This document shows positions 24,548 through 37,836 of a stretch of DNA of 64,000 nucleotides, in pieces. A program made the translations under genes and the position numbers. Source of the DNA: Burkholderiales bacterium (lineage in GTDB: Bacteria > Pseudomonadota > Gammaproteobacteria > Burkholderiales > Burkholderiaceae_C). The notes under the pieces were generated by a model that made no database searches, had not been told where the DNA came from, and was given only the letters and a program-made list of their open reading frames with translations. The stretch covers positions 1 to 64,000 of the forward strand of contig JACPOI010000006.1 in the NCBI GenBank assembly GCA_016185015.1, in the 5' to 3' direction. Each line of letters begins with the position of its first letter. The stretch's first letter is position 1.

Positions 24548-24661
24548 GACGAACTCCTGACTGGCATAGGCGCCAGCATTCCTTGCAGAATTATCGGCCT
24601 CGCCCCCGGATCTGTCACTTTGATTTGGGGCTCGAAAAGACCATATTTCCCGCTCTCTCGG

Positions 24662-24688
24662 TTATCGGCGGATTCGCATGTAACTTGA
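24662..24688 (-). promoter_or_regulatory. Sigma-28 (FliA) promoter for fliD
   Basis: On the minus strand TCAAGTTA (24681-24688), an 11-base spacer and GCCGATAA (24662-24669) are seen. This is one of the best FliA sites in the window. It lies between the fliC1 terminator and fliD, leaving a leader of about 110 bases. A second isolated GCCGATAA occurs at 24591-24598 without a -35. Confidence 0.85.
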
Positions 24689-26688: not shown

Positions 26689-28179
26689 ATGGCTGCCGTT
26701 ATCAACACCAATATCAGCTCGCTGACCGCGCAGCGCAACCAAGGGAGTAGCCAGGCATCCCTGGCCACCTCCATCCAGCGCCTGTCTTCGGGCTTGCGCA
26801 TCAACAGCGCCAAGGACGACGCTGCTGGCCTGGCAATTTCCGAGCGCTTCACCAGCCAGATCCGCGGCCTGAACCAGGCCGCACGTAATGCGAACGACGG
26901 CATCTCCCTGGCCCAGGTGGCTGAAGGTGCCCTGGGTTCGGCCAGCAACATCCTGCAGCGTGTGCGTGAACTGGCTGTGCAGTCGGCCAACGCCACCAAC
27001 AGCGCCTCGGACCGCCAGGCCCTGAACCAGGAAGTGGGTCAGCTGGTCGCCGAACTGGACCGGATTGCCCAGACCACTGAATTCAACGGCCAGAAGATCC
27101 TGGACGGCACCTTCGGTACCGCCCAGTTCCAGGTCGGCGCCAATTCCGGCCAGGTCATCGTGGCCTCCACCGCCAACCTGCGCACCGGCCAGTACGGCAA
27201 CAACCAGGTCATCGCCAGCGGCCCGTCCGCAGCAGGTGCCACCTGGGGTGCCAACGGCAGCGTGGTTGATACCGTCGCCATCAACGGTGCCCTGGGCAGC
27301 GCCACCGTCAACCTGGCCGCCAACGGTACGGCCAAGCTGGCCGCCGACACGATCAATCTGCAAACCCCCAACACCGGCGTCTCCGCCTCGGCCCGCACCG
27401 ACGTGCAGCTGACCTTCGCCGCCGCCGGCGCCTACTCGCTGGCGCTGCGTTCGGACAACGCGGCCGACGAGTCCGTCTCCTTCGCGATCTCGGCCACCAC
27501 GGGTGCCGACGGCCTGTCCAATGCTGTGTCGGCCATCAACGAGAAATCGTCCAAGACCGGCGTCATTGCCAGCCTGAACGTGGCCGGCACCGGCATCATC
27601 CTGACCAATGCCACCGGCAACGACATCCGCGTCGGTGACGCGACCACCGTCAACGCCGGTGCCGTGACCGTCACCAAATACGCCTCGGACACCACCGGTG
27701 CCCTGGTGGCCGTGGCCGGCAACGTCACCCTGGCGGCCGACAGCACGGCCGACAACGCCCTGATCAGCGGCTACGTGACGATGGACTCGGACAAATCCTT
27801 CGCCGTGAACGCCACGACCGGTAGCGCCGCCTCGCTTATCATCGACAGCAACTCGACGCTGAAGAAGGTGGCCAACCTGGACGTGACCACCGCCATCCGG
27901 GCCAACGACGCGCTCAAGACGGTGGACTCGGCCCTGTCCTTCATCAGCGGCGAACGCGCCAAGCTGGGTGCCCTGCAGGCCCGCTTCGAGACCGCCATTT
28001 CGGCCCTGCAGATCACCGCCGAGAACCTGACCGCTTCACGCAGCCGCATCATGGACGCTGACTTCGCCGCCGAAACCGCCGCCCTGTCGCGCGCCCAGAT
28101 CCTGCAGCAGGCGGGCACGGCCATGGTGGCCCAGGCCAACCAGATCCCGCAGGGCGTGCTGGCTCTGCTGCGTCAGTAA
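26689..28179 (+). CDS. fliC: Flagellin (copy 2)
   Basis: Filament subunit, 496 aa, near-duplicate of copy 1 and transcribed away from it. N-terminus [55 protein letters not shown]-terminus [47 protein letters not shown]. Even the variable central domain aligns with copy 1 almost without gaps (for example [30 protein letters not shown] in both), which points to recent duplication or gene conversion. GAAGGAG precedes the ATG. There is no obvious terminator before the glycosyltransferase 24 bases on, so the two may be cotranscribed. Confidence 0.97.
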
Positions 28180-28203: not shown

Positions 28204-30399
28204 GTGCGAACTGCGCGCCCCCCCACCGCCGCAGATCCGCACGACGCGAAGCTGCATGCCGCCTTGCAGGCGGCAGACTGGCCGCTGCTGGTGCGCCTGT
28301 GCCGCCAGGCCCTGCGCAATAACGGACGGCACCTGCGGGCGCACCGACTGCTGGGCTTCGCGCTCAACAGGCAACGCGACACCGACGCCGCGCTGGCCGC
28401 CTACAAACAGGCGGCCGCCCTGTGGCCGGACGACGCGGAACTGCTCATCAACTACAGCAACGTACTGCTGGAGCATGGCATGCATGCCGAGGCCAGCCAG
28501 CTGCTGGACAAGGTGTGCATCCTCAAGCCCGAGCACGCCATCAGCTGGCTCAATCTGGCGTATTGCTGCTACGAGACACGTCAGAACGAGCTGGGTTTTG
28601 CCGCCGCGCAAAAGGCGGCTGCACTGGCCCAGAACCTGGACCAACAGGTGGCGGCGTTGACGCAAAAAGCCATCCACCGGCGTGAACTCGGGGAAATCCG
28701 TGAAGCCGTGCAGGATTGCGAAGCCGCCATCCGGCTGAACCCGCAATACTTGCCCAACCACACCAACCGCCTGCTGTTCATGCTGGCGGATCCGGCCATC
28801 GATGCGCAGCAACTGGCTGCAGCAGCCCGTGAGTTCGCTGCCGTCGTGGAACCGGCGCTCAAGCCCCACTGGCCGGATTTCGCAGCGCAACGCACGGGGC
28901 CGTGGCGGCGGCTGAAGATCGGCTTTCTGTCACCCGACTTTCGTCTTCACGCCGTGATGTATTTCGTCGAAAGTCTGCTGGCACAACTCGATCGTCGTCA
29001 GTTCGAGGTATGGGCCCTGTACCTCTACCCCAAGGAGGATGGGCTGACCCAACGGGTCCAGAACCATGTTGACCATTTCGTGCGCCTGTCCGGCCTGACA
29101 CCGGACGAACAGGCCGAGGCCATCCGCGCACAAGGTATAGACATCCTGATTGACCTGGCAGGCCACACTGGACACAACGGCTTGCTGGCCATGGCCCGCA
29201 AGGCGGCGCCGGTGCAGGTCTCCTGGCTCGGCTACCCGGCAACCACCGGCCTGAGCGCCATCGACTACAAGTTCACCGACGAGGTCACCGACCCGCCCGG
29301 CGCCGACGACCTCTACAGCGAGCGGCTGTACAGACTGCCCACCTTGTTCTGCTGTTACCGGCCCATGTGCCGGGAACCCCTCTGGCGCTACCAGCCGGCC
29401 TACCAGGTACGCCCGACACCGGCACTGCAAAACGGTCACGTGACCTTCGGCTCCTGCAACAACCTGGGCAAACTCACCGACGCAGTGCTCTCCCTCTGGG
29501 GGCGCTTGCTCGACACCGTGCCCGGATCCCGTCTGCTGATCGAAGGCAAGAACCTGGGCGAGGCCGCATTCGCCGCCGCCTATCGCCAACGCTGCGCCCG
29601 GCTGGGCATTGATGTCAGCCGGCTCGAACTGGTCCCGCTGGACGGAAACAACCAGTACCTGACCTATCACCGCATCGACATCGCCCTCGACCCGTTCCCC
29701 CTCACGGGTGGCACGACCTCCTTTGACCTGCTCTGGATGGGCGTGCCCCTGGTGTCGATGAATGGCAGCAGCTTCAAGAGCCGCATGGGCACAGGCATCC
29801 TGACCCACCTGGGACGTTCCGAATGGCTGGCTCATGATGCCGAGGAATACCTGGGCATTGCCAGCGCACTGGCACACGACGTTGAGCAACTCAACACCCT
29901 GCGCCTGGGCTTGCGCAAGGAAGTCGAGCAGTCGGTGCTGATGCGCGAAGACCTGTTCTGCCATCACTTCGGTGAAGGCCTGCGCCTCATGTGGTTGCAG
30001 TGGTTGGCCGAGGGCCAGCACCCGCAGGACGCCGAGGCGCAAAGCCGTCTGATCGAAAGCTGGCTGCCCGACCTGCCCGTCGAGTGGTCCACCCGGCCCA
30101 CCCCCGGTGTCGGCCTGGCCCCGGGCCGGCGCGTGGATCTGCCGCAGGCCCACCAGCAGCTGCAGGAATTGTTGGACAAGGCGCGCACGATGCGCCCCTC
30201 CGTATCGTCCACCGAAGGCCAGATCAGCCACCGCTGCTGGCGGGACGTGACGGAAGCCGCCGAGCAGCTGCTGTGCGCCGTGCCGCACGATCCGGTGGCG
30301 CTGGCCTGCCTGGCCGAGGTCGAACATGCGCACGGTCATGCCGACTTTGCCGTCACTTACCTGCGCTACGCACAGGAAGCACTGATCGCCCGGGGCTGA
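28204..30399 (+). CDS. TPR / SPINDLY-type (GT41) O-linked glycosyltransferase
   Basis: Protein O-glycosyltransferase of the OGT/SPINDLY family, 731 aa, cytoplasmic. Residues about 15-210 are TPR-like helical repeats (LGFALNRQRDTDAALAAYKQAAALWPDDAELLINYSNVLLEHGMHAEASQLLDKVCILKPEHAISWLNLA). The catalytic half (about 235-610) has IGFLSPDFRLHAVMYF, DILIDLAGHTGHNGLLAMARKAAPVQVSWLGYPATTGLSAIDY, TFGSCNNLGKLTDAVLSLWGRLL and DIALDPFPLTGGTTSFDLLWMGVPLVS. It starts 24 bases after flagellin copy 2, so flagellin is the likely acceptor. The GTG start is uncertain, with no clear ribosome site. The donor sugar cannot be read from sequence. Confidence 0.9.
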   Translation: MRTARPPTAADPHDAKLHAALQAADWPLLVRLCRQALRNNGRHLRAHRLLGFALNRQRDTDAALAAYKQAAALWPDDAELLINYSNVLLEHGMHAEASQLLDKVCILKPEHAISWLNLAYCCYETRQNELGFAAAQKAAALAQNLDQQVAALTQKAIHRRELGEIREAVQDCEAAIRLNPQYLPNHTNRLLFMLADPAIDAQQLAAAAREFAAVVEPALKPHWPDFAAQRTGPWRRLKIGFLSPDFRLHAVMYFVESLLAQLDRRQFEVWALYLYPKEDGLTQRVQNHVDHFVRLSGLTPDEQAEAIRAQGIDILIDLAGHTGHNGLLAMARKAAPVQVSWLGYPATTGLSAIDYKFTDEVTDPPGADDLYSERLYRLPTLFCCYRPMCREPLWRYQPAYQVRPTPALQNGHVTFGSCNNLGKLTDAVLSLWGRLLDTVPGSRLLIEGKNLGEAAFAAAYRQRCARLGIDVSRLELVPLDGNNQYLTYHRIDIALDPFPLTGGTTSFDLLWMGVPLVSMNGSSFKSRMGTGILTHLGRSEWLAHDAEEYLGIASALAHDVEQLNTLRLGLRKEVEQSVLMREDLFCHHFGEGLRLMWLQWLAEGQHPQDAEAQSRLIESWLPDLPVEWSTRPTPGVGLAPGRRVDLPQAHQQLQELLDKARTMRPSVSSTEGQISHRCWRDVTEAAEQLLCAVPHDPVALACLAEVEHAHGHADFAVTYLRYAQEALIARG

Positions 30400-30429
30400 G
30401 TCAAGGCCCCGCAAGACAAGGGCCCGCCC

Positions 30430-31083
30430 TCAGACGTCGCGGAAGAAGTCGCTCAGGATGTCGTGTCCGGGCGCCTTGAACACCAGACCACCGCCCGCCC
30501 CCTGGTAGGCGATACAGCCGGCTTCGGTGTCGCGGCTGATCACGCTGACGCCCTGCGCGATGACGGAGCGGCTGCGCACCTGGCAGCGCCCGATGATGGC
30601 CGTGTTGGGATAAAGAATGACCCCATCTTCCAGCACCGGCGCCTCGCCATGGTTCTTGCCGACGGTGGAGTTCTGGTAGAGCACCAGATGGTTGCCATAG
30701 GTCGCCTTGGCCAGCACGATGCCCACCGAATGGCCGATGAAAAACACCTCGGGCAAATCGATCTCGTAGAAACAATCGATCGCGTTGAGCATCTTGTTCA
30801 GCAGGAACAGCTTGGAGCACACCGAGCGCGCCCGCTCACGGCGCCAGATCGTGTTGGACAGGTAGTACAGGAAGATGCAGTACTGCGAGGAATGCAGCAC
30901 GTCGAACTGCCCGGGTGTCCACATGCGCACCTGCGCGATGCAGCGTTCCAGCCGGCCCAGGGCCTCGTCCAGGTGCGCATCGATCAGGCCCAGTTCGGGG
31001 TCTTCACCAGTCGGGAAGAACTGCGTGATCTGGGTCCGCACATAAGCGGCCAGCCGCGAACGCTCGATGTTGATGATGTTCAT
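30430..31083 (-). CDS. Serine-acetyltransferase-like hexapeptide acyltransferase
   Basis: Left-handed beta-helix (hexapeptide) protein, 217 aa. An N-terminal helical half (LDEALGRLERCIAQVRMWTPGQFDVLHSSQYCIFLYYLSNTIWR) precedes a CysE-like repeat region: VFFIGHSVGIVLAKATYGNHLVLYQNSTVGKNHGEAPVLEDGVILYPNTAIIGRCQVRSRSVIAQGVSVIS. The GHSVGIVLAKATYG and VGKNHG segments match acetyltransferases of the serine O-acetyltransferase type. As last gene of a nucleotide-sugar operon it more likely acylates a sugar than serine. It overlaps the upstream SDR gene (ATGA) and converges on the glycosyltransferase. Confidence 0.8.
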   Translation of the reverse strand: MNIINIERSRLAAYVRTQITQFFPTGEDPELGLIDAHLDEALGRLERCIAQVRMWTPGQFDVLHSSQYCIFLYYLSNTIWRRERARSVCSKLFLLNKMLNAIDCFYEIDLPEVFFIGHSVGIVLAKATYGNHLVLYQNSTVGKNHGEAPVLEDGVILYPNTAIIGRCQVRSRSVIAQGVSVISRDTEAGCIAYQGAGGGLVFKAPGHDILSDFFRDV

Positions 31084-31919
31084 GATGCTTGTGCCATGTC
31101 CCGCAGCCAGGGGCCGATCACGGTTTCCACCCGCGCCGGTCGCCAGCCGAATTCGTGTTGCAGACGGCTGATGTCAACCACCGCCGGCGCGGCCGGCACC
31201 TGGTCCGATCTGAAAACCAGGGTACGGTTGGCCAGCCGACCAACCAGCTGCGCCAACTCATCGTTGCGCACGTTTTCACCGGTCGCCACGTTGTAGGCCG
31301 ACTGCGTGCCGCGCTGCGCGATGTCCACCAGTGCGCGCAACACGTCGGGCAGATGGATGTAATCACGCGCGGCCTGGGGCGAGGAATCGATCGTGACGGT
31401 CGCACCGCGTGGCGCCTGCGCCACCTGGCGCAAGAGCGCAGGCAGAAAGCCCTGGGCATCGTCCGGGCTGTCATACACGCTGGCCAGGCGGGCCACACGT
31501 GCACGCCCCTGGCCCAGCACATGGCAGAGCGACTCGCCGGTGAGTTTGGTGAGATCGAACAGGTGGCGTGGTACCTGCGGGGCCACGGGGAGCAGGGTGG
31601 CTTCCTCAGCCCGCGCACCCGGGCTCAAGCCGTCATAGAGCCGCGTGGACGACAGGTAGACCAGCGAGTCCCAGGTGCTGGACTGCAGCACACGCACCAG
31701 CAGGCTGACGTGCGCCTCCACGGTGTCGGCCGCACGTTGCAGGTAGTCACCGGTCAGGCCGGCGCAATAAAAGACATGGCCCAGCGGCTGGCCCTTCAAC
31801 GGCCAGGCCGTATCCCGCCCGGCAAGCCGGCAGTCCCACCCCGCGGCCGACAGATGCCGTGCCAGCGCCGAGCCGACGAAACCGTGGCCGCCGATGATGG
31901 TCGCGATCGGTCTGCTCAT
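31080..31919 (-). CDS. NAD(P)-dependent sugar epimerase/reductase (extended SDR)
   Basis: Rossmann-fold protein of 279 aa with GGHGFVGSALARHL (dinucleotide site) and LVYLSSTRLYDG. In the catalytic YxxxK position it reads FDLTK (F121, K125): the codon is TTC, so the usual Tyr is Phe. The C-terminal part has ARDYIHLPDVLRALVDIAQRG and YNVATGENVRNDELAQLVGRL, as in sugar 4-ketoreductases. In this operon it is the natural candidate for 4-keto reduction of the CDP-sugar, though loss of Tyr argues for altered chemistry. It lies 30 bases after the FkbM gene. Confidence 0.82.
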   Translation of the reverse strand: MSRPIATIIGGHGFVGSALARHLSAAGWDCRLAGRDTAWPLKGQPLGHVFYCAGLTGDYLQRAADTVEAHVSLLVRVLQSSTWDSLVYLSSTRLYDGLSPGARAEEATLLPVAPQVPRHLFDLTKLTGESLCHVLGQGRARVARLASVYDSPDDAQGFLPALLRQVAQAPRGATVTIDSSPQAARDYIHLPDVLRALVDIAQRGTQSAYNVATGENVRNDELAQLVGRLANRTLVFRSDQVPAAPAVVDISRLQHEFGWRPARVETVIGPWLRDMAQAS

Positions 31920-31949
31920 GGGATGGATTAGATACGGGCGACGCCGGCC

Positions 31950-33023
31950 TCAGTCCGGCAAACCGTCGAGCGGATGGTGCAGCGCCGGCGACTTGTGGCG
32001 CAACAGCTTCGGGCTGACGTTCTTCACCTGGCGGAACAAGGGGCCGGCGATGAGCGCCGGGTCGGCCACCGCCAGCATGTTGAAACCATGCGGCGGGCCT
32101 TCCAGGTAGACACTGTCGGCCGGCACCAGCTCGATGCAGCGCGCGCCCATTTCCTGGTGCGTGTTGAAGTCGCGCACGGCGTAGAGCTGGTAGCCGGCGG
32201 TGCTCAGCAAACTGCAGATGGGCGTTTTCGCCAGGCCGACGCTCCAGTCCACGTAATCGCGGTGCACCTCGAACACGACGGCCGGCTTCTCCTGGGCCAG
32301 CACGCGCGCCGCGCCTTGCAGGGCGCGCAATTCGGCGCCCTCGATGTCGAGCATCAACACGCTGAGAGGGCGCCCCTGGGCCCGGCAGTAGTCGTCGATG
32401 GTGATGGTTTCGAAGCCGTCATCGCCGGTCGCGGGCACGGCATTGGCAAAGGAGTCAAAGCCGTCCAGGCGCAGGCGCTGGCTGCTCTCATGCCAGAGCC
32501 CCTGCTTGTTGATGCGCAGGTTGTCCAGCGCATTGAGCTGCGCGTTGGCCGCCAGCATGGCCGCCTGGTCGGTATTGGGCTCGAAGCAGTGCACCAGTCG
32601 GCCGCTGCCCTTGAGCTGCACGCCCAGCACCACCGCATGGTCGCCGAAGTAGGCGCCGCCGATCAGCACGTCGCCACGACCCTGCGCTGTCAGATGCTTC
32701 AGCAGGCGCGTGGTCTGCGGCTCCCAGACATGGCTGGGGCGTTCCTGCTCGGCCAGGATGAAATCGCGCGCGATCTTGGTGCGAAAGAGGAAACGGAAAC
32801 GCGTGCCATCGGCCAGCTGTTTCTCGTAGACATCCTGCTCGCTGTGCAGCGCATCGATGATGGGGCCGGTGATGTCGTCGCGCACCGAACCGGTGTGAGG
32901 CAACTGCCGCTCGGCACGCTTGAGCCAGTCCATCAGCTCGGCCCGCAGGGCCGTGTCGCGCCCCAGTTGCAACAAGGCCCGCTGCAGCCGGGAACCGTCG
33001 AGGTCGCGTGGGTCATTTGCCAT
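31950..33023 (-). CDS. FkbM-family SAM-dependent methyltransferase
   Basis: Putative O-methyltransferase of 357 aa. The SAM-binding core has GDVLIGGAYFGDHAVVLGVQLKGSGRLVHCFEPNTDQAAMLAANAQLN, then TITIDDYCRAQGRPLSVLMLDIEGAELRALQGAARVL, both diagnostic for FkbM. A 100-residue N-terminal helical extension precedes the core. FkbM enzymes commonly O-methylate sugars in glycans. AAGGA lies 9-10 bases before ATG 33023. It sits between the C-methyltransferase and SDR genes on the same strand, so sugar or glycan methylation is likely. Confidence 0.87.
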   Translation of the reverse strand: MANDPRDLDGSRLQRALLQLGRDTALRAELMDWLKRAERQLPHTGSVRDDITGPIIDALHSEQDVYEKQLADGTRFRFLFRTKIARDFILAEQERPSHVWEPQTTRLLKHLTAQGRGDVLIGGAYFGDHAVVLGVQLKGSGRLVHCFEPNTDQAAMLAANAQLNALDNLRINKQGLWHESSQRLRLDGFDSFANAVPATGDDGFETITIDDYCRAQGRPLSVLMLDIEGAELRALQGAARVLAQEKPAVVFEVHRDYVDWSVGLAKTPICSLLSTAGYQLYAVRDFNTHQEMGARCIELVPADSVYLEGPPHGFNMLAVADPALIAGPLFRQVKNVSPKLLRHKSPALHHPLDGLPD

Positions 33024-33062
33024 ATTCAGTTCCTTAGGGATTTGTTACCGGGCCTGTCGCCC

Positions 33063-34289
33063 TCATGCCGACCGGATATCCGGTACCGCCACCACCAGCT
33101 GCCCGCCCCATGCGCGCACATAGGCCAACTGCACCATCAGCTCTTCGCGCAGGTTCCACGGCAGGATCAGCACCCGGTCCGGGCGGTCCTGGCGCAGATG
33201 CGCCTCGTCCACGATGGGAATACGGCTACCAGGCATGTACTTGCCCTGCTTGGCCGGGTTCAGGTCCACCACGTAGGGCAGCAGATCCGGCCGCACGCCG
33301 GCGAAGTTGAGCAGGGTGTTGCCCTTGGCGGCTGCGCCATAAGCGCCCACCTTGAGCCCATCGCGTTTCGCCTGCAGCAGGAACGCCAGCAGCCCATGTT
33401 TGACACGTTCGGCCTCATGCTGGAAGCCGGCGTAGAAGCCCGGTGCCGTCATGCCGGCGGCCTGCTCGCGCCCCAGCAGGTCTGATACGGCCGCCCCTAC
33501 GGGCTGGTGCCCGCCATCGCTGCGCTGCGCCAACACGCGCAGGCTGCCGCCGTGTGTGGGCAGTTCCTCCACGTCGAAAACCTGCAGGCCGTTGGCCGCG
33601 AAGATGCGCTGTACCGCGGTAAGCGACAGGTAGGAGTAGTGCTCGTGGTAGGCGGTGTCGAACTGGCACGCCTGCACCATGCGCAGCAGATGCGGGAACT
33701 CGAAGGTGGCCACGCCCTGGGGCTTGAGCAGCAGGGCAAAACCGGCCACGAAGTCGTTGATGTCGGGCACATGGGCCAGCACGTTGTTGGCCGCCATCAG
33801 ATCGGCCTGGCGGCCCTGGGCCGCCAGCTCGCGCGCCAGCGCCACACCGAAGAAGCGTTCGACGATCGCGATGCCCTTGGCCCGCGCTGCCGCGGCCGTG
33901 CTGGCCGTGGGCTCGATGCCGTAGCAGGGCACCCCGGCCTGCTGGACGTACTGCAGCAGGTAGCCGTCGTTGGCCGCCACTTCCACCACACAACTTGCTG
34001 CATTCAGGCCGAAACGCGAGCGCATGGCCTGCACATAGGCCTGCGCATGCGCCAGCCAGGAGGTGGAAAAGGAGCTGAAGTAGGCGTAGTCGTCACTGAA
34101 GAGTTGTTCGCGCCCGGCGTGGTCCTCGGTCTGCACCAGCCAGCAGGAGGTGCAGACCAGCAGGCGCAGCGGGTACCAGGTCTCGGGCGCCTGCAGGTCC
34201 TGCGGCTTCAGATAAGCGTTGGATGGCGGGGCGCTGCCCAGATCGAGGAAGGGCAGGCGCAGTTCGCTGGCGCAATGACGGCACTTCAC
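33063..34289 (-). CDS. NDP-sugar C-methyltransferase (zinc-binding N-terminus)
   Basis: SAM-dependent methyltransferase of the TylCIII-like family, 408 aa. The N-terminal zinc-binding part (KCRHCASELRLPFLDLGSAPPSNAYL, then CTSCWLVQTEDH) is followed by FSDDYAYFSSFSTSWLAHA, the SAM domain (VVEVAANDGYLLQYVQQAGVPCYGIEPT), FEFPHLLRMVQACQFDTAYHEHYSYLSL and GAYGAAAKGNTLLNF. This layout is that of sugar 3-C-methyltransferases acting on 4-keto-6-deoxy nucleotide sugars. Start GTG 34289 overlaps the epimerase stop (GTGA). The upstream cytidylyltransferase, dehydratase and epimerase would supply exactly such a substrate. Confidence 0.87.
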   Translation of the reverse strand: MKCRHCASELRLPFLDLGSAPPSNAYLKPQDLQAPETWYPLRLLVCTSCWLVQTEDHAGREQLFSDDYAYFSSFSTSWLAHAQAYVQAMRSRFGLNAASCVVEVAANDGYLLQYVQQAGVPCYGIEPTASTAAAARAKGIAIVERFFGVALARELAAQGRQADLMAANNVLAHVPDINDFVAGFALLLKPQGVATFEFPHLLRMVQACQFDTAYHEHYSYLSLTAVQRIFAANGLQVFDVEELPTHGGSLRVLAQRSDGGHQPVGAAVSDLLGREQAAGMTAPGFYAGFQHEAERVKHGLLAFLLQAKRDGLKVGAYGAAAKGNTLLNFAGVRPDLLPYVVDLNPAKQGKYMPGSRIPIVDEAHLRQDRPDRVLILPWNLREELMVQLAYVRAWGGQLVVAVPDIRSA

Positions 34290-34846
34290 AAGCGCACCCC
34301 CTCGAATCCCGGTGTCAGCCAGGCAAAACCTGCATCGCGCGGCGACAGGCCCAGCACCGGCAGGGGCCAGGTGATGGCCAGCCGGGCATCGCGCACGTGC
34401 AAGCCGGCCTCGGCGCTCGGCGCGTAGGCGGCGGAATGGCAATAGACGAGTTCAGCATCGTCGCTCAGGGCCTGGAAGCCGTGGGCAAAACCGGCCGGGA
34501 TCAGCACCGCTGCACCATCGGCCGCACTCAGGAATTGCGCATGCCACTGCAGGAAGGTGGGGGAGCCGGCGCGCACATCCACCGCGACGTCCCACACCTC
34601 GCCGCGCACGCAGCTGACCAGTTTCATTTCGGCATGCGGGGCGCGCTGGTAATGCAGACCACGCACCGTGCCACGCGCGCGCGTGAAGCTGTGGTTGACC
34701 TGGGCCACCGGCACGGTCCAGCCGGCGGCCGCCAGTTCCTCGGCGCAGAAGAGGCGGGCAAAAGAACCGCGCTCGTCCGCCAGACGCTGGCGTTGCACAC
34801 GCTTGAGCCCGGCCAGGGGCAGGTCGCTCACTTTCAGGCTGCTCAT
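34286..34846 (-). CDS. rfbC: RmlC-like nucleotide-sugar 3,5-epimerase (3- and/or 5-epimerase)
   Basis: Cupin-fold sugar epimerase of 186 aa. It has DERGSFARLF, QVNHSFTRARGTVRGLHYQRAPHAEMKLVSCVRGEVWDVAVDVRAGSPTFLQWHAQFLSAADGAAVLIPAGFAHGFQALSDDAELVYCHSAAY; the His of RGLHYQ, the Lys of MKLV and the Tyr pair of LVYCHSAAY are the catalytic set. The start at ATG 34846 overlaps the dehydratase stop (ATGA). Given its CDP-sugar neighbours it probably epimerises CDP-4-keto-6-deoxyglucose at C3 (perhaps C5), not the dTDP form. Confidence 0.88.
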   Translation of the reverse strand: MSSLKVSDLPLAGLKRVQRQRLADERGSFARLFCAEELAAAGWTVPVAQVNHSFTRARGTVRGLHYQRAPHAEMKLVSCVRGEVWDVAVDVRAGSPTFLQWHAQFLSAADGAAVLIPAGFAHGFQALSDDAELVYCHSAAYAPSAEAGLHVRDARLAITWPLPVLGLSPRDAGFAWLTPGFEGVRL

Positions 34847-35919
34847 ACGGCGGCTTCCCAGGCTTCTATATCGGTCAGGCACAGCGCACGCGCGGCAGCG
34901 CCATCCTTGTGCGCACGGTACCAGCGCATGCTGCGCTGCACCGTCTGCGCCAGGGACCAGCGCGGCTGCAGCGCCAACTGCGCCTGCGCCTTCGAGGTGT
35001 CGAGCGCGAGCCAGCCTGCCTCGTGCGGCCCGGTGACTTCGTTCTCGTAATGCACCGCGCCGCCGCCCCAGGCGCCGCGCGCCAGCTCCACCACCTGCTG
35101 CACGGTGGCGCGTTCATGCGCGTGCGGGCCGAAGTTCCAGGCACCGGCCAGCGCGGCGTCCTGCCACAGGGCCTGGGCCAGGCAGAGGTAAGCGGCCAGC
35201 GGCTCCAGCACATGCTGCCAGGGGCGGGTGGCCTGCGGCCGACGGATCTGCAGCGTGTCGCCGCGCTGCCAGGCGCGCACGGCGTCGGGCAGCAGGCGAT
35301 CGGCCGCCCAGTCACCACCGCCGATCACATTGCCGGCGCGCGCGCTGGCCAGGGCCAGGCCCTGGGCGGACAGGAAGGCATCGCGATAGCTGCTGATGGC
35401 CATTTCGCTGGCGGCCTTGCTGGCGCTGTAGGGATCGTGTCCGCCCAGCTCGTCGCTCTCGCGGTAGGGGTGGTGCCACTCATGGTTGCGGTAGACCTTG
35501 TCGGTCGTGACCAGCACGGCCACGCGCGTGCCGGGCTGCTGGCGCAAGGCGTCAAGCAGATGCACGGTGCCCATGACATTGGTGGCGTAGGTGGCCACCG
35601 GGTCGCGGTAGCTCTCGCGCACCAGGGCCTGGGCGGCCAGGTGCAACACGATCTCGGGGCGGGTCTGCTGCACCACCCGGGCCACGGCACCCGCATCGCG
35701 GATGTCGGCCAGACGGTGGTCCATGTCAGCGGCCAGGCCGGTGAGCCCGAAGAGATTGGGTTCGGTGGCCGGCGCCAGCGCCAGGCCTGTAACCTGCGCG
35801 CCCAGGCGCTGCAGCCACAGCGCCAGCCAGGCGCCCTTGAAGCCGGTGTGCCCGGTCAGCAGCACGCGCTTGCCGCGCCAGAAGGCGGCGTCGGGCCGGC
35901 CGGCTTGCCCCTGCGTCAT
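34843..35919 (-). CDS. rfbG: CDP-glucose 4,6-dehydratase
   Basis: Converts CDP-glucose to CDP-4-keto-6-deoxyglucose with bound NAD. It is 358 aa. The family's N-terminal signature is seen: WRGKRVLLTGHTGFKGAWLALWLQRLGAQVTGLALAPATEPNLF. VLVTTDKVYRNHEWHHPYRESDELGGHDPYSASKAASEMAI carries the TDK and YxxxK residues, followed by GNVIGGGDWAADRLLPD. ATG 35919 follows a GTG at 35922; either may start. It is adjacent to the cytidylyltransferase that makes its substrate. Confidence 0.95.
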   Translation of the reverse strand: MTQGQAGRPDAAFWRGKRVLLTGHTGFKGAWLALWLQRLGAQVTGLALAPATEPNLFGLTGLAADMDHRLADIRDAGAVARVVQQTRPEIVLHLAAQALVRESYRDPVATYATNVMGTVHLLDALRQQPGTRVAVLVTTDKVYRNHEWHHPYRESDELGGHDPYSASKAASEMAISSYRDAFLSAQGLALASARAGNVIGGGDWAADRLLPDAVRAWQRGDTLQIRRPQATRPWQHVLEPLAAYLCLAQALWQDAALAGAWNFGPHAHERATVQQVVELARGAWGGGAVHYENEVTGPHEAGWLALDTSKAQAQLALQPRWSLAQTVQRSMRWYRAHKDGAAARALCLTDIEAWEAAV

Positions 35920-36689
35920 CACCAGACCTTCCAGGGGGCCTGCCCCGAAGCCCAGAGGGTTTCGAGCAAGGTCTTCTCGCGCAAGGTGTCCATGGGCTGC
36001 CAGAAGCCATGGTGCTCATAGGCCATGAGTTCGCCATCGCTGGCCAGCCCGGTCAGGGGCTCGATCTCCCAACTGGTCGCATCGCCGGCAATGCGGGGGA
36101 TGCAGCGCGGCGAGAGCACGAAGAAACCACCATTGATCAGGCCGCCATCACCGCGCGGCTTTTCGGTAAAGCCAGCCACCTGCGCGCCCTGCATCTGCAG
36201 CGCGCCGTAACGGCCCGGGGGCTGCACGGCCGTGACAGTGGCCAGCTTGCCATGCCCTTTGTGAAAGCGGATCGCCTCGGCGATGTTGACGTCGGCCACA
36301 CCATCGCCATAGGTAAAGCAGAAGGCCTCGTCCTCGGCCACGTAGTCGGCCACACGCTTGAGGCGCCCGCCCGTCATGGTCTCTTCACCGGTGTCGACCA
36401 CCGTCACGCGCCAGGGTTCGGCGTGGCGACGATGGATTTCCATGCGGTTGCTGCCCATGTCGAAGGTGATGTCCGAGGTGTGCAGGAAATAGTTGGCGAA
36501 GTATTCCTTGATCACGTAACCGCGGTAACCACAGCAGATCACGAAGTCGTTGACGCCATGGGCGCTGTAGATCTTCATGATGTGCCACAGGATGGGCTTG
36601 CCCCCGATCTCGATCATCGGTTTGGGTTTGAGGTGGGTCTCCTCGGAAATCCGGGTGCCCAGGCCGCCGGCCAGGATGACTGCTTTCAT
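35919..36689 (-). CDS. rfbF: Glucose-1-phosphate cytidylyltransferase
   Basis: Makes CDP-glucose from CTP and glucose 1-phosphate, the entry step to CDP-deoxyhexoses. It is 256 aa. KAVILAGGLGTRISEETHLKPKPMIEIGGKPILWHIMKIYSAHGVNDFVICCGYRGYVIKEYF is the family N-terminus, with the nucleotide loop GGLGTR. FTYGDGVADV and the GFWQPMDTLREKTLLETLWASGQAPWK end are also typical. It is the first gene of the seven-gene sugar operon. A CTATATATAG palindrome (36718-36727) about 30 bases upstream may include its -10. Confidence 0.95.
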   Translation of the reverse strand: MKAVILAGGLGTRISEETHLKPKPMIEIGGKPILWHIMKIYSAHGVNDFVICCGYRGYVIKEYFANYFLHTSDITFDMGSNRMEIHRRHAEPWRVTVVDTGEETMTGGRLKRVADYVAEDEAFCFTYGDGVADVNIAEAIRFHKGHGKLATVTAVQPPGRYGALQMQGAQVAGFTEKPRGDGGLINGGFFVLSPRCIPRIAGDATSWEIEPLTGLASDGELMAYEHHGFWQPMDTLREKTLLETLWASGQAPWKVW

Positions 36690-36953: not shown

Positions 36954-37280
36954 ATGACCGACGAACAGATGATCGCCGAGATCCGCGAAACCAACCTCAC
37001 CTATCTGATGCTGGCGCAGAACCTGATCCGCAAGGACAAGGCCGAGGCGCAGTTCCGCCTGGGCATCTCGGAAGAGTCGGCCGACCTGATGGCTGCCCTC
37101 TCCCCGGCGCAGATCTCCAAGATCGCCTCCAGCAGCATGCTGCTGTGCCGCTTCCGCATGGACGACGAGGTGGTGTGGAGCCTGCTGACCAACCAGGCCG
37201 CCCGCAAGGTGGACAACGACGCTACCACCCGCCTGCACGCCAGCATCCTGATGGCCGGCCGTTTCGCCGAAGCCACCTGA
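36954..37280 (+). CDS. flhD: Flagellar master regulator subunit FlhD
   Basis: With FlhC forms the FlhD4C2 activator of class II flagellar operons. It is 108 aa. EIRETNLTYLMLAQNLIRKDKAEAQFRLGISEESADLMAALSPAQISKIASSSMLLCRFRMDDEVVWSLL matches FlhD throughout. AAAGGAG lies before the ATG. flhC follows 16 bases later. Presence of flhDC supports a beta- or gammaproteobacterial host. Confidence 0.97.
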   Translation: MTDEQMIAEIRETNLTYLMLAQNLIRKDKAEAQFRLGISEESADLMAALSPAQISKIASSSMLLCRFRMDDEVVWSLLTNQAARKVDNDATTRLHASILMAGRFAEAT

Positions 37281-37296
37281 ACCCGGAGCACGCACC

Positions 37297-37836
37297 ATGG
37301 CCACCGGCAAAAGCGTCCTCAATGAATCGCGCCAGATCGAGCGCGCCGTCGCCCTGATCAAGCTGGGCGCCCGGCTGCAGGTGCTCGAGAGCGAGACCGA
37401 CCTGTCCTACGAGCGCCTCTTGCGCCTGTACAAGGAAGTGGCTGGCAAGTCGCCCTCCAAGGGTCAGCTGCCCTTCTCGACCGACTGGTTCCTGACCTGG
37501 CAGCCCAACATCCACGCCTCGCTCTTCCTCAACATCTACGAGTACCTGAGCAAGACCAGCAGCCTGGAAGACATCGAAGCCGTGATGAAGGCCTTCCGTC
37601 TGTACAGCGAGCAGATGGTCACGCTGGACATGGAGCCCCTGCTCTCGGTCACGCGCGCCTGGCGCCTGGTCAAGTTCGTGGACAACAACATGCTGGCCAT
37701 GACGCGCTGCTCCAAGTGCAACGGGCATTTCGTCTCCGAGCCCTATGAAAACGCCCGCCATTACGTCTGCGGCCTGTGCGAGCCGCCGGCGCGCGCCGGC
37801 AAGGGCAGTGCGGCGGGTGGCATCCTGCTGCACTGA
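37297..37836 (+). CDS. flhC: Flagellar master regulator subunit FlhC
   Basis: DNA- and zinc-binding partner of FlhD, 179 aa. SVLNESRQIERAVALIKLGARLQVLESETDLSYERLLRLYKEVAGKSPSKGQLPFSTDWFLTWQPNIHASLFLNIY is the family core. The zinc site is CSKCNGHFVSEPYENARHYVCGLCEPP (four Cys). A strong terminator follows, so flhDC is a separate transcript from motAB. Confidence 0.97.
   Translation: MATGKSVLNESRQIERAVALIKLGARLQVLESETDLSYERLLRLYKEVAGKSPSKGQLPFSTDWFLTWQPNIHASLFLNIYEYLSKTSSLEDIEAVMKAFRLYSEQMVTLDMEPLLSVTRAWRLVKFVDNNMLAMTRCSKCNGHFVSEPYENARHYVCGLCEPPARAGKGSAAGGILLH

Follow-up and report, generated by a model that had tools for sequence, protein, structure and literature searches.

Cytidine diphosphate (CDP)-vinelose, the activated form of 6-deoxy-3-C-methyl-2-O-methyl-L-talose, was isolated from Azotobacter vinelandii in the 1960s, and to our knowledge it had neither assigned genes nor a purpose. 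Flagellin glycosylation islands (FGIs) with GT41 genes are already published; according to the main text of a survey of Enterobacteriaceae, they carry GT41/SPINDLY genes, genes for FkbM and other methyltransferases, and variable tailoring genes (De Maayer and Cowan 2016, PMC4875605), and one type, type 23, has CDP-4-keto-6-deoxyglucose genes in four strains (PMC4875605). Plant SPINDLY (SPY), the eukaryotic relative considered below, is described as using a 6-deoxyhexose donor (PMC9715652). Here, we analyze a 64,000-nucleotide stretch of DNA from a Burkholderiales bacterium (G000:C16:1-64000; "the window" is this whole stretch), in which a GT41 gene stands next to flagellin and faces a seven-gene operon predicted to make a CDP-sugar. 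The enzymes encoded beside the flagellar genes of this freshwater bacterium should build a methyl-branched sugar and attach it to flagellin. More specifically, we lean, if only slightly, toward flagellin glycosylation with a vinelose-type CDP-3-C-methyl-6-deoxyhexose moved by the GT41 protein.

Results

A sugar operon facing a GT41 gene beside flagellin

The two flagellin copies of the window lie back to back and are 86% identical to each other. The GT41 gene starts 24 bp past the second copy, as a first-pass annotation of the window had reported, and converges on the last gene of the operon, with 30 bp between them. Read from the flhD side, the minus-strand operon encodes glucose-1-phosphate cytidylyltransferase (DdhA), CDP-glucose 4,6-dehydratase (DdhB), an RmlC-family epimerase, a C-methyltransferase (C-MT), an FkbM methyltransferase, a short-chain dehydrogenase/reductase (SDR), and a CysE-like acyltransferase, with 264 bp separating DdhA from flhD. 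Family matches are strong for every operon gene except the acyltransferase, and all the genes that the annotation had named lie where it had placed them. Its count of overlaps at four of the six operon junctions also held: they are 4 bp each (DdhA/DdhB, DdhB/RmlC, RmlC/C-MT, and SDR/acyltransferase), or 1 bp at DdhA/DdhB with an alternative in-frame ATG; the C-MT/FkbM and FkbM/SDR junctions are gaps of 39 and 30 bp. Glycosyltransferase and sugar genes thus lie beside flagellar genes, as they do in an FGI. This arrangement is more than chance would give and is kept across many species.

The pathway that we propose is predicted at every step. DdhA and DdhB would make CDP-4-keto-6-deoxy-D-glucose, the RmlC-family epimerase would invert C3, or C3 and C5, and the zinc-type C-MT would attach a branching methyl group, with C3 as the likeliest position. 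We imagine that the C4 keto group is then handled by species-variable enzymes encoded in the tail of the operon and that O-methyl and/or O-acetyl groups are added to the product; the tail enzymes of the window would be the FkbM methyltransferase, an SDR that lacks the catalytic tyrosine, and the CysE-like acyltransferase. The resulting CDP-activated 3-C-methyl-6-deoxyhexose of vinelose type would be moved by the GT41/SPINDLY protein onto Ser/Thr of the flagellin central domain before export. The families of DdhA, DdhB, RmlC, and C-MT support a CDP-activated C-methyl-6-deoxyhexose, which the first-pass annotation had also proposed.

Conservation of the core and of its linkage to flagellin

Conservation was followed in 26 genomes of Hylemonella/Curvibacter (Hylemonella belongs to Comamonadaceae), referred to here as the genus. 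C-MT is present at an identity of at least 80% in 15 of them, and all 15 carriers have the full core (DdhA, DdhB, RmlC, and C-MT) with flagellin and/or GT41 alongside. The 14 loci other than the window have the core in every case, flagellin in 13, GT41 in 12, and at least one of the two in all 14; those missing flagellin or GT41 (L049, L053, and L058) reach a contig end on the relevant side, and in G011 a pair of divergent GT41s lies upstream of DdhA. The tails differ. By names that are approximate, being best tblastn labels on the locus maps with some checked by Pfam, the window and six genus relatives have an FkbM-SDR-acyltransferase tail, G020 has hexapeptide-SDR-acyltransferase, G016 and G012 have an SDR with TylF- and CmcI-type genes, G022 and G004 have other mixes, and G001, G008, and G011 have a DegT aminotransferase, CmcI, WbqC, GNAT, a further methyltransferase, and PhyH. 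From the fixed core and the differing tails, we infer a constant keto-sugar intermediate that feeds variable finishing. The earlier expectation that no amino sugar is made fits the window itself but does not extend to the locus type, since a DegT aminotransferase directly follows C-MT in 3 of the 15 genus genomes. This aminotransferase-type tail (L053, L054, and L058) suggests a 4-amino C-methyl sugar in those three genomes.

A Flagellin_N match is found in 23 of the 26 genus genomes, G012 being positive solely through a 77-bit, FlgL-level match; C-MT occurs in 15 of these 23 versus none of the 3 without, a sample too small for the phylogenetic profile alone to prove a link to flagellin. A natural empty site is seen in G025 (L264, G025:C19:28000-47900), where flhD lies ~360 bp from fliC and no sugar genes were seen. 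The two flagellins at this fliC site have no central domain and match the window flagellin only over residues ~1 to 167 and 398 to 495. Flagellin length was tried as a marker of the module and set aside as imperfect, with long flagellins but no C-MT in G023, G018, G024, G010, and G025.

In a family sample of 399 genomes, 54 had a C-MT match at E 1e-110 or better, and 50 loci outside the genus were mapped. Where C-MT identity is at least 75%, the full core is present at 14 of 15 loci and GT41 and/or flagellar genes at 13 of 15; in the two exceptions, C-MT lies at a contig end (L097) or the flanks extend for 9.1 and 4.0 kb (L089). The corresponding counts are 5/6 and 3/6 at 68 to 75% identity, 3/7 and 1/7 at 60 to 68%, and 8/22 and 2/22 below 60%. 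A scan of named genomes, for which the best 80 loci are listed, duplicates included and some shared with the genus and family sets, found the full core at 71. Flagellin or GT41 lies nearby at loci of, among others, Acidovorax, Achromobacter, and Rhodoferax and at two of four Undibacterium loci; at the Methylophilus, Rhizobium, and cyanobacterial loci, neither flagellin nor GT41 was found within the fetched flanks. Of these 71 full cores, 54 have an SDR as the first gene predicted to act on C4, 14 have DegT, and 3 have neither; the O-methyltransferase is of CmcI type in 52 and FkbM in 3, while 16 have neither. A plasmid search with C-MT returned 123 records; among the 50 listed, most are from Sinorhizobium, and the best match (74%) is from Desulfolutivibrio.

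It is very probable that the target of the sugar is flagellin. Across the genus and several genera of the family, the core is syntenic with flagellin, GT41, and flhDC, which supports this destination, already part of the first interpretation, and in the bacterium's own genome there is one CDP-glucose 4,6-dehydratase over the cutoff and a single GT41 gene. One can envision instead that the operon serves a lipopolysaccharide (LPS) O-antigen or another polysaccharide and that its place beside flagellin is incidental; in many other taxa the core does not adjoin flagellin, and a C-methyl deoxysugar, virenose, is known from LPS (PMC3539893). We consider this very unlikely given the linkage to flagellin and/or GT41 at all 14 other genus loci and at 13 of the 15 close family loci. 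Moreover, Pfam shows no flippase, polymerase, or GT2 among the eight proteins encoded by the operon plus GT41, and the genome has its own O-antigen-like cluster on another contig (G000:C17:411000-430900, L263). Flagellin is clearly the better reading of the destination. The L263 cluster encodes RmlB-, RmlD-, GMD-, and Wzx-type proteins, DegT, GT2, and a second C-methyltransferase that is 31% identical; apart from C-MT, the genome has a single PF08484 protein, on contig C17.

A likely vinelose cluster in Azotobacter vinelandii

Among the Pseudomonadaceae, 24 of 248 genomes have a C-MT match at E 1e-90, and the two best, at 77%, fall in one genus; both of these genomes encode nifD and further nifD-family genes. 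One of them, G840, is a single contig of 5,366,370 bp, and its NifD stretch is identical to PDB 4wza across all 468 aligned residues. We take 4wza to be an A. vinelandii protein and, because of this identity, take G840 to be A. vinelandii. Its locus has fliC, a GT41 of 1,257 aa that carries a GT2 domain at its C terminus, and then a facing sugar operon, which encodes DdhA, DdhB, RmlC, C-MT, a hexapeptide transferase, an SDR, RMNT_CmcI (annotated "rhamnosyl O-methyltransferase"), a PhyH-like protein, and a TylF-type protein. The core is 65 to 80% identical to that of the window, with C-MT at 77%. The sole PF08484 C-methyltransferase of G840, its sole GT41 gene, and its only CDP-glucose 4,6-dehydratase over the cutoff (469 bits; next match, 97) are all at this flagellin locus. 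The gene content and families of both loci, their linkage to flagellin, and the core that they share can be read directly from the sequences.

Since DdhA, DdhB, RmlC, C-MT, the SDR, and CmcI match what CDP-vinelose needs, this is likely the vinelose cluster. No earlier statement of such a link was found in the open-access papers searched. At the 12 Pseudomonadaceae loci fetched of the 24 matches, flagellin is present in 7 and GT41 in 6. A second, divergent C-methyltransferase-like protein (24%) lies inside the operon of G801, which is congeneric with G840 (L249:12329-13210), and extra C-methyltransferase-like copies are also seen in L086, L093, and L103.

The window has CDP-glucose synthesis, the 4,6-dehydratase, the RmlC-type epimerase, and the C-methyltransferase of a CDP-vinelose pathway. 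However, because its SDR has FxxxK, we class it as vinelose type only and not as a vinelose maker. Virenose, which the first-pass annotation had named as a possible product, is a poorer guide. The in silico routes for Coxiella are based on TDP and GDP (PMC3539893), whereas the window genes are for a CDP-sugar, and the putative A. vinelandii locus shares the core, with a C-MT identity of 77%, which makes CDP-vinelose the closer precedent. Virenose was therefore ruled out as the named product.

Position of the methyl branch

C-MT has a zinc domain, an S-adenosylmethionine domain, and Methyltransf_14 (Methyltransf_13/_23/_14), as in the TylCIII/TcaB9 type. In the PDB, 10 of 11 matching sequences are sugar 3-C-methyltransferases or TcaB9, the other being a weak partial match; the nearest entries are 5t64, TcaB9, and 4rv9, and 3ndi also matched. 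H173, Y214, E216, and H217 align with the active site of TcaB9 and are invariant in 16 homologues; the TcaB9 counterparts, H181, Y222, E224, and H225, are presumably catalytic. By this analogy, C-MT probably methylates C3, which we favor over C5 because of the A. vinelandii precedent.

That leaves noviose-type chemistry, in which the same enzyme classes would place the methyl at C5. Among PDB sequences, the epimerase matches NovW best (118 bits), and the gene composition resembles that of the noviose genes. NovW leads the next RmlC-type chains (113 to 106 bits) by only a few bits, however. The PDB matches of C-MT also argue against C5, though this set is biased and no NovU appeared in it or in any other search, as does the 77% identical G840 homologue, the only PF08484 protein of a genome whose CDP-sugar is 3-C-methylated. 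Noviose-type chemistry is therefore quite unlikely in our view, and methylation at C3 remains preferred. For the product sugar, we somewhat favor the L configuration. The epimerase sequence did not separate D from L: NovW and the RmlC-type chains score close to each other and, as we read the alignment, keep the same His and Tyr.

The donor pocket of the GT41 protein

The nearest PDB sequence to the window GT41 is Arabidopsis SPY (7e-81). Its AlphaFold2 model (predicted local distance difference test score [pLDDT], 89.4) has SPY as the top Foldseek matches (1.7e-38); against 8dti, the Foldseek value is 1.0e-37 with a template modeling score of 0.82 by target. H495, N661, and K665 of SPY correspond to H249, N419, and K423, so that the active-site His and the essential Lys are kept. 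S496, described as orienting the acceptor, and Y744 (C917 in human OGT), described as setting donor size (PMC9715652), correspond to Ala250 and Leu500; no residue of the window protein corresponds to H728, which stacks against the purine. Because of Leu500 at the Y744 position, we assign the protein to the SPINDLY branch and not to the O-fucosyltransferases.

The comparison set of 75 GT41 rows reduces to 62 distinct catalytic regions, whose alignment at the donor site is uncertain for distant members. Leu together with the Lys occurs in 25 of the 62, comprising all 23 of type A (identity of at least 57%) and two at ~41%; in another 23, the donor-size residue is His and the essential Lys is replaced by Arg, and the remainder have Tyr (6, including G840), Phe (3), Cys (2), or others (3). 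The His/Arg proteins form a second type, with ~29 to 37% identity, that adjoins the same module (for example, L054:12788, L092, L164, and L251).

Leu at the donor position would fit a changed donor, and it seems somewhat likelier than not that the GT41 protein uses the CDP-sugar directly. Alternatively, the first sugar that GT41 places on flagellin might be a common one, such as N-acetylglucosamine (GlcNAc), and an unlinked transferase would then add the CDP-sugar to it. GlcNAc-type glycans have been suggested for the GT41s of flagellin islands, with wider specificity allowed (PMC4875605), and the G840 protein bears an extra GT2 domain. Such a two-step transfer is somewhat unlikely for the window: the operon has no second glycosyltransferase (Pfam found none besides GT41 among the operon-region proteins), the donor-pocket Leu is in all 23 distinct type-A GT41s plus 2 others of the 62, and the nearest fold is the fucose-using SPY.

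An SDR without the catalytic tyrosine

The window SDR reads LFDLTK at the YxxxK site. Phe, encoded by TTC or TTT, is present in all eight genus copies of this type (31080-31919 in the window, L045, L046, L047, L050, L052, L056, and L057), whereas Tyr is found in all 85 others among the 93 distinct module SDRs (duplicates L141, L142, L143, L146, L149, L165, L175, and L204 dropped). Tyr is kept even in SDRs of other genera with the identical FkbM-SDR-acyltransferase tail (L094, L201, and L251), and the G840 SDR has YNLSK. The mean pairwise ratio of nonsynonymous to synonymous substitution rates (dN/dS) of the SDR is 0.165 (28 pairs), compared to 0.106 to 0.200 for the neighboring genes, with 0.106 for the FkbM gene. 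Given Phe in all copies and purifying selection, this SDR appears to be maintained yet altered.

Plain C4 reduction in the window, which the first-pass annotation had proposed, is uncertain because its SDR lacks the catalytic Tyr. The window lineage might thus end with a C-methyl sugar that is not reduced, for example a 4-keto form, the SDR not being a reductase, as FxxxK in eight of eight selectively maintained copies would suggest. Against this, the cofactor motif, the SSTR motif, and the Lys are intact, another reductase of the genome could act, and 4-keto sugars are reactive. We regard an unreduced product as unlikely.

Acyltransferase, promoter motifs, and neighboring features

The acyltransferase has no Pfam match at 0.001. 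Its NCBIfam match to EpsC (5.9e-13, 48.9 bits) is below the cutoff of 150, and its AlphaFold model (pLDDT, 70) has weak Foldseek matches to serine acetyltransferases; it appears to be a distant CysE/EpsC relative.

The motif GCCGATAA, which we take to be sigma-28 -10-like, occurs with at most one mismatch 54 times in the window, compared to 26.9 expected, and exact copies are at 265, 23102, 24591, and 24662. The full sigma-28 promoter pattern TAAA-N14-16-GCCGATAA has 0 matches anywhere in the window. Two of the exact copies (24591-24669, minus strand) are directly upstream of fliD. Pfam also confirms FliD, MotA, MotB, and CheZ in the window, and the gene labeled cheY encodes a response-regulator domain. 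A third flagellin gene lies elsewhere in the genome (G000:C54:13324-13734, L003; frame of 572 aa), and relatives have comparable genes. Coordinates are collected in Table 1.

Table 1. Genes of the flagellin-linked sugar locus, with positions in the window
Feature	Position	Strand	Evidence or remark
Flagellin copy 1, 495 aa	24769..26256	-	PF00669, 157.9 bits
Flagellin copy 2, 496 aa, probable acceptor	26689..28179	+	PF00669, 162.7 bits; residues 171-400, S+T 23%
Predicted protein glycosyltransferase, tetratricopeptide repeat (TPR)-GT41 (SPINDLY branch), 731 aa	28204..30399	+	GTG start; PF13844, 9.3e-48, plus TPR matches
Putative sugar O-acetyltransferase (serine-acetyltransferase-like), 217 aa	30430..31083	-	NCBIfam EpsC, below cutoff; weak Foldseek rows
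NAD-dependent epimerase/dehydratase-family SDR, 279 aa	31080..31919	-	PF01370, 2.3e-18; expected 4-ketoreductase, yet FxxxK for YxxxK
FkbM-family methyltransferase, putative sugar O-methyltransferase, 357 aa	31950..33023	-	TIGR01444, 2.2e-16; PF05050
Zinc-type sugar C-methyltransferase (C-MT), 408 aa	33063..34289	-	PF08421/PF13489/PF08484 (9.2e-61); GTG start overlaps RmlC
RmlC-family NDP-4-keto-hexose 3- or 3,5-epimerase, 186 aa	34286..34846	-	PF00908, 5.6e-57
CDP-glucose 4,6-dehydratase (DdhB/RfbG)	34843..35922	-	TIGR02622, 476.9 bits (cutoff 278)
Glucose-1-phosphate cytidylyltransferase (DdhA/RfbF)	35919..36689	-	TIGR02623, 472.9 bits (cutoff 300)
flhD and flhC, locus boundary	36954..37836	+	FlhD PF05247, 4.7e-39; FlhC PF05280, 6.4e-83; synteny

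Discussion

The first interpretation of this locus is partly supported by our analysis. Going further, and tentatively, we can envision the four-gene core as a mobile CDP-3-C-methyl-6-deoxyhexose cassette, with CDP-vinelose as one of its products and a flagellin donor, with the SPINDLY-branch GT41 of the window having switched from GDP- or UDP- to CDP-sugars through Leu at the pocket Tyr position, and with the tyrosine-less SDR of the Hylemonella/Curvibacter lineage acting in a new way on the C-methylated intermediate. As far as open-access searches go, the C-methyl core and the design of constant core and variable tail at flagellin loci are new, as are the link to A. vinelandii, the pocket Leu of GT41, and an SDR lacking the catalytic tyrosine. 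If our reading is correct, CDP-vinelose would gain genes and a purpose, and methyl-branched deoxysugars would decorate the flagella of many Proteobacteria. The transferase would be the first GT41, as far as we know, to use CDP-sugars, and could become a tool for protein glycosylation.

Several observations weigh against the transfer of a vinelose-type CDP-sugar to flagellin by GT41. We know of no GT41 with a CDP-sugar donor, and the enzyme classes found here also make up NovW/NovU-type pathways, in which C5 is methylated. The window has FkbM in place of the RMNT_CmcI 2-O-methyltransferase, so that it and its six relatives cannot be assumed to make vinelose, and it has no 4-ketoreductase with YxxxK, which the proposed CDP-vinelose pathway would include. 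The G840 locus itself is not a simple match: its GT41 is 32% identical to that of the window and is fused to GT2, and its hexapeptide acyltransferase, PhyH-like, and TylF proteins would be superfluous for vinelose. At the named-genome loci, a GT41 or flagellar gene is near the core in 13 of 13 with C-MT identity of at least 75%, in 10 of 31 at 68 to 75%, in 5 of 35 at 60 to 68%, and in 0 of 1 below; since many other bacteria have the core with no flagellin or GT41 in the fetched flanks, the cassette is widespread and the sugar is not specific to flagella. Long flagellins are also found in genus genomes without C-MT (frames of 468 aa in G023, 596 in G018, and 572 in G024; flagellins of 277 and 661 aa in G010 and, on another contig, of 542 aa in G025). 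Finally, GCCGATAA, exact or with at most one mismatch, is absent between the sugar operon and flhD.

How, then, does the locus compare with known systems? It resembles CDP-vinelose in its predicted CDP-activated 3-C-methyl-6-deoxyhexose with an O-methyl group and in having the same core as the G840 flagellin locus with its GT41; it differs in having FkbM for CmcI, the tyrosine-less SDR, and the CysE-like acyltransferase, and the two GT41s are just 32% alike. The noviose enzymes NovV/T/W/U/S belong to the same classes, NovW being the best PDB match of the epimerase, but they make a dTDP sugar, methylated at C5, for an antibiotic. Coxiella virenose is likewise a 3-C-methyl-6-deoxyhexose for which a TylCIII-type methyltransferase has been proposed, though by TDP/GDP routes and for LPS (PMC3539893), whereas the window has CDP genes beside flagellin. 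The FGIs of Enterobacteriaceae share GT41 in flagellin islands, FkbM methyltransferases, and variable tailoring; they belong to different bacteria, and the main text of PMC4875605 has 0 matches to "c-methyl." Although SPY uses GDP-fucose, and the window protein has Leu at the Y744 position and no counterpart of H728, Arabidopsis SPINDLY shares with it the TPR-GT41 fold and the essential Lys, and the SPY donor is a 6-deoxyhexose (PMC9715652).

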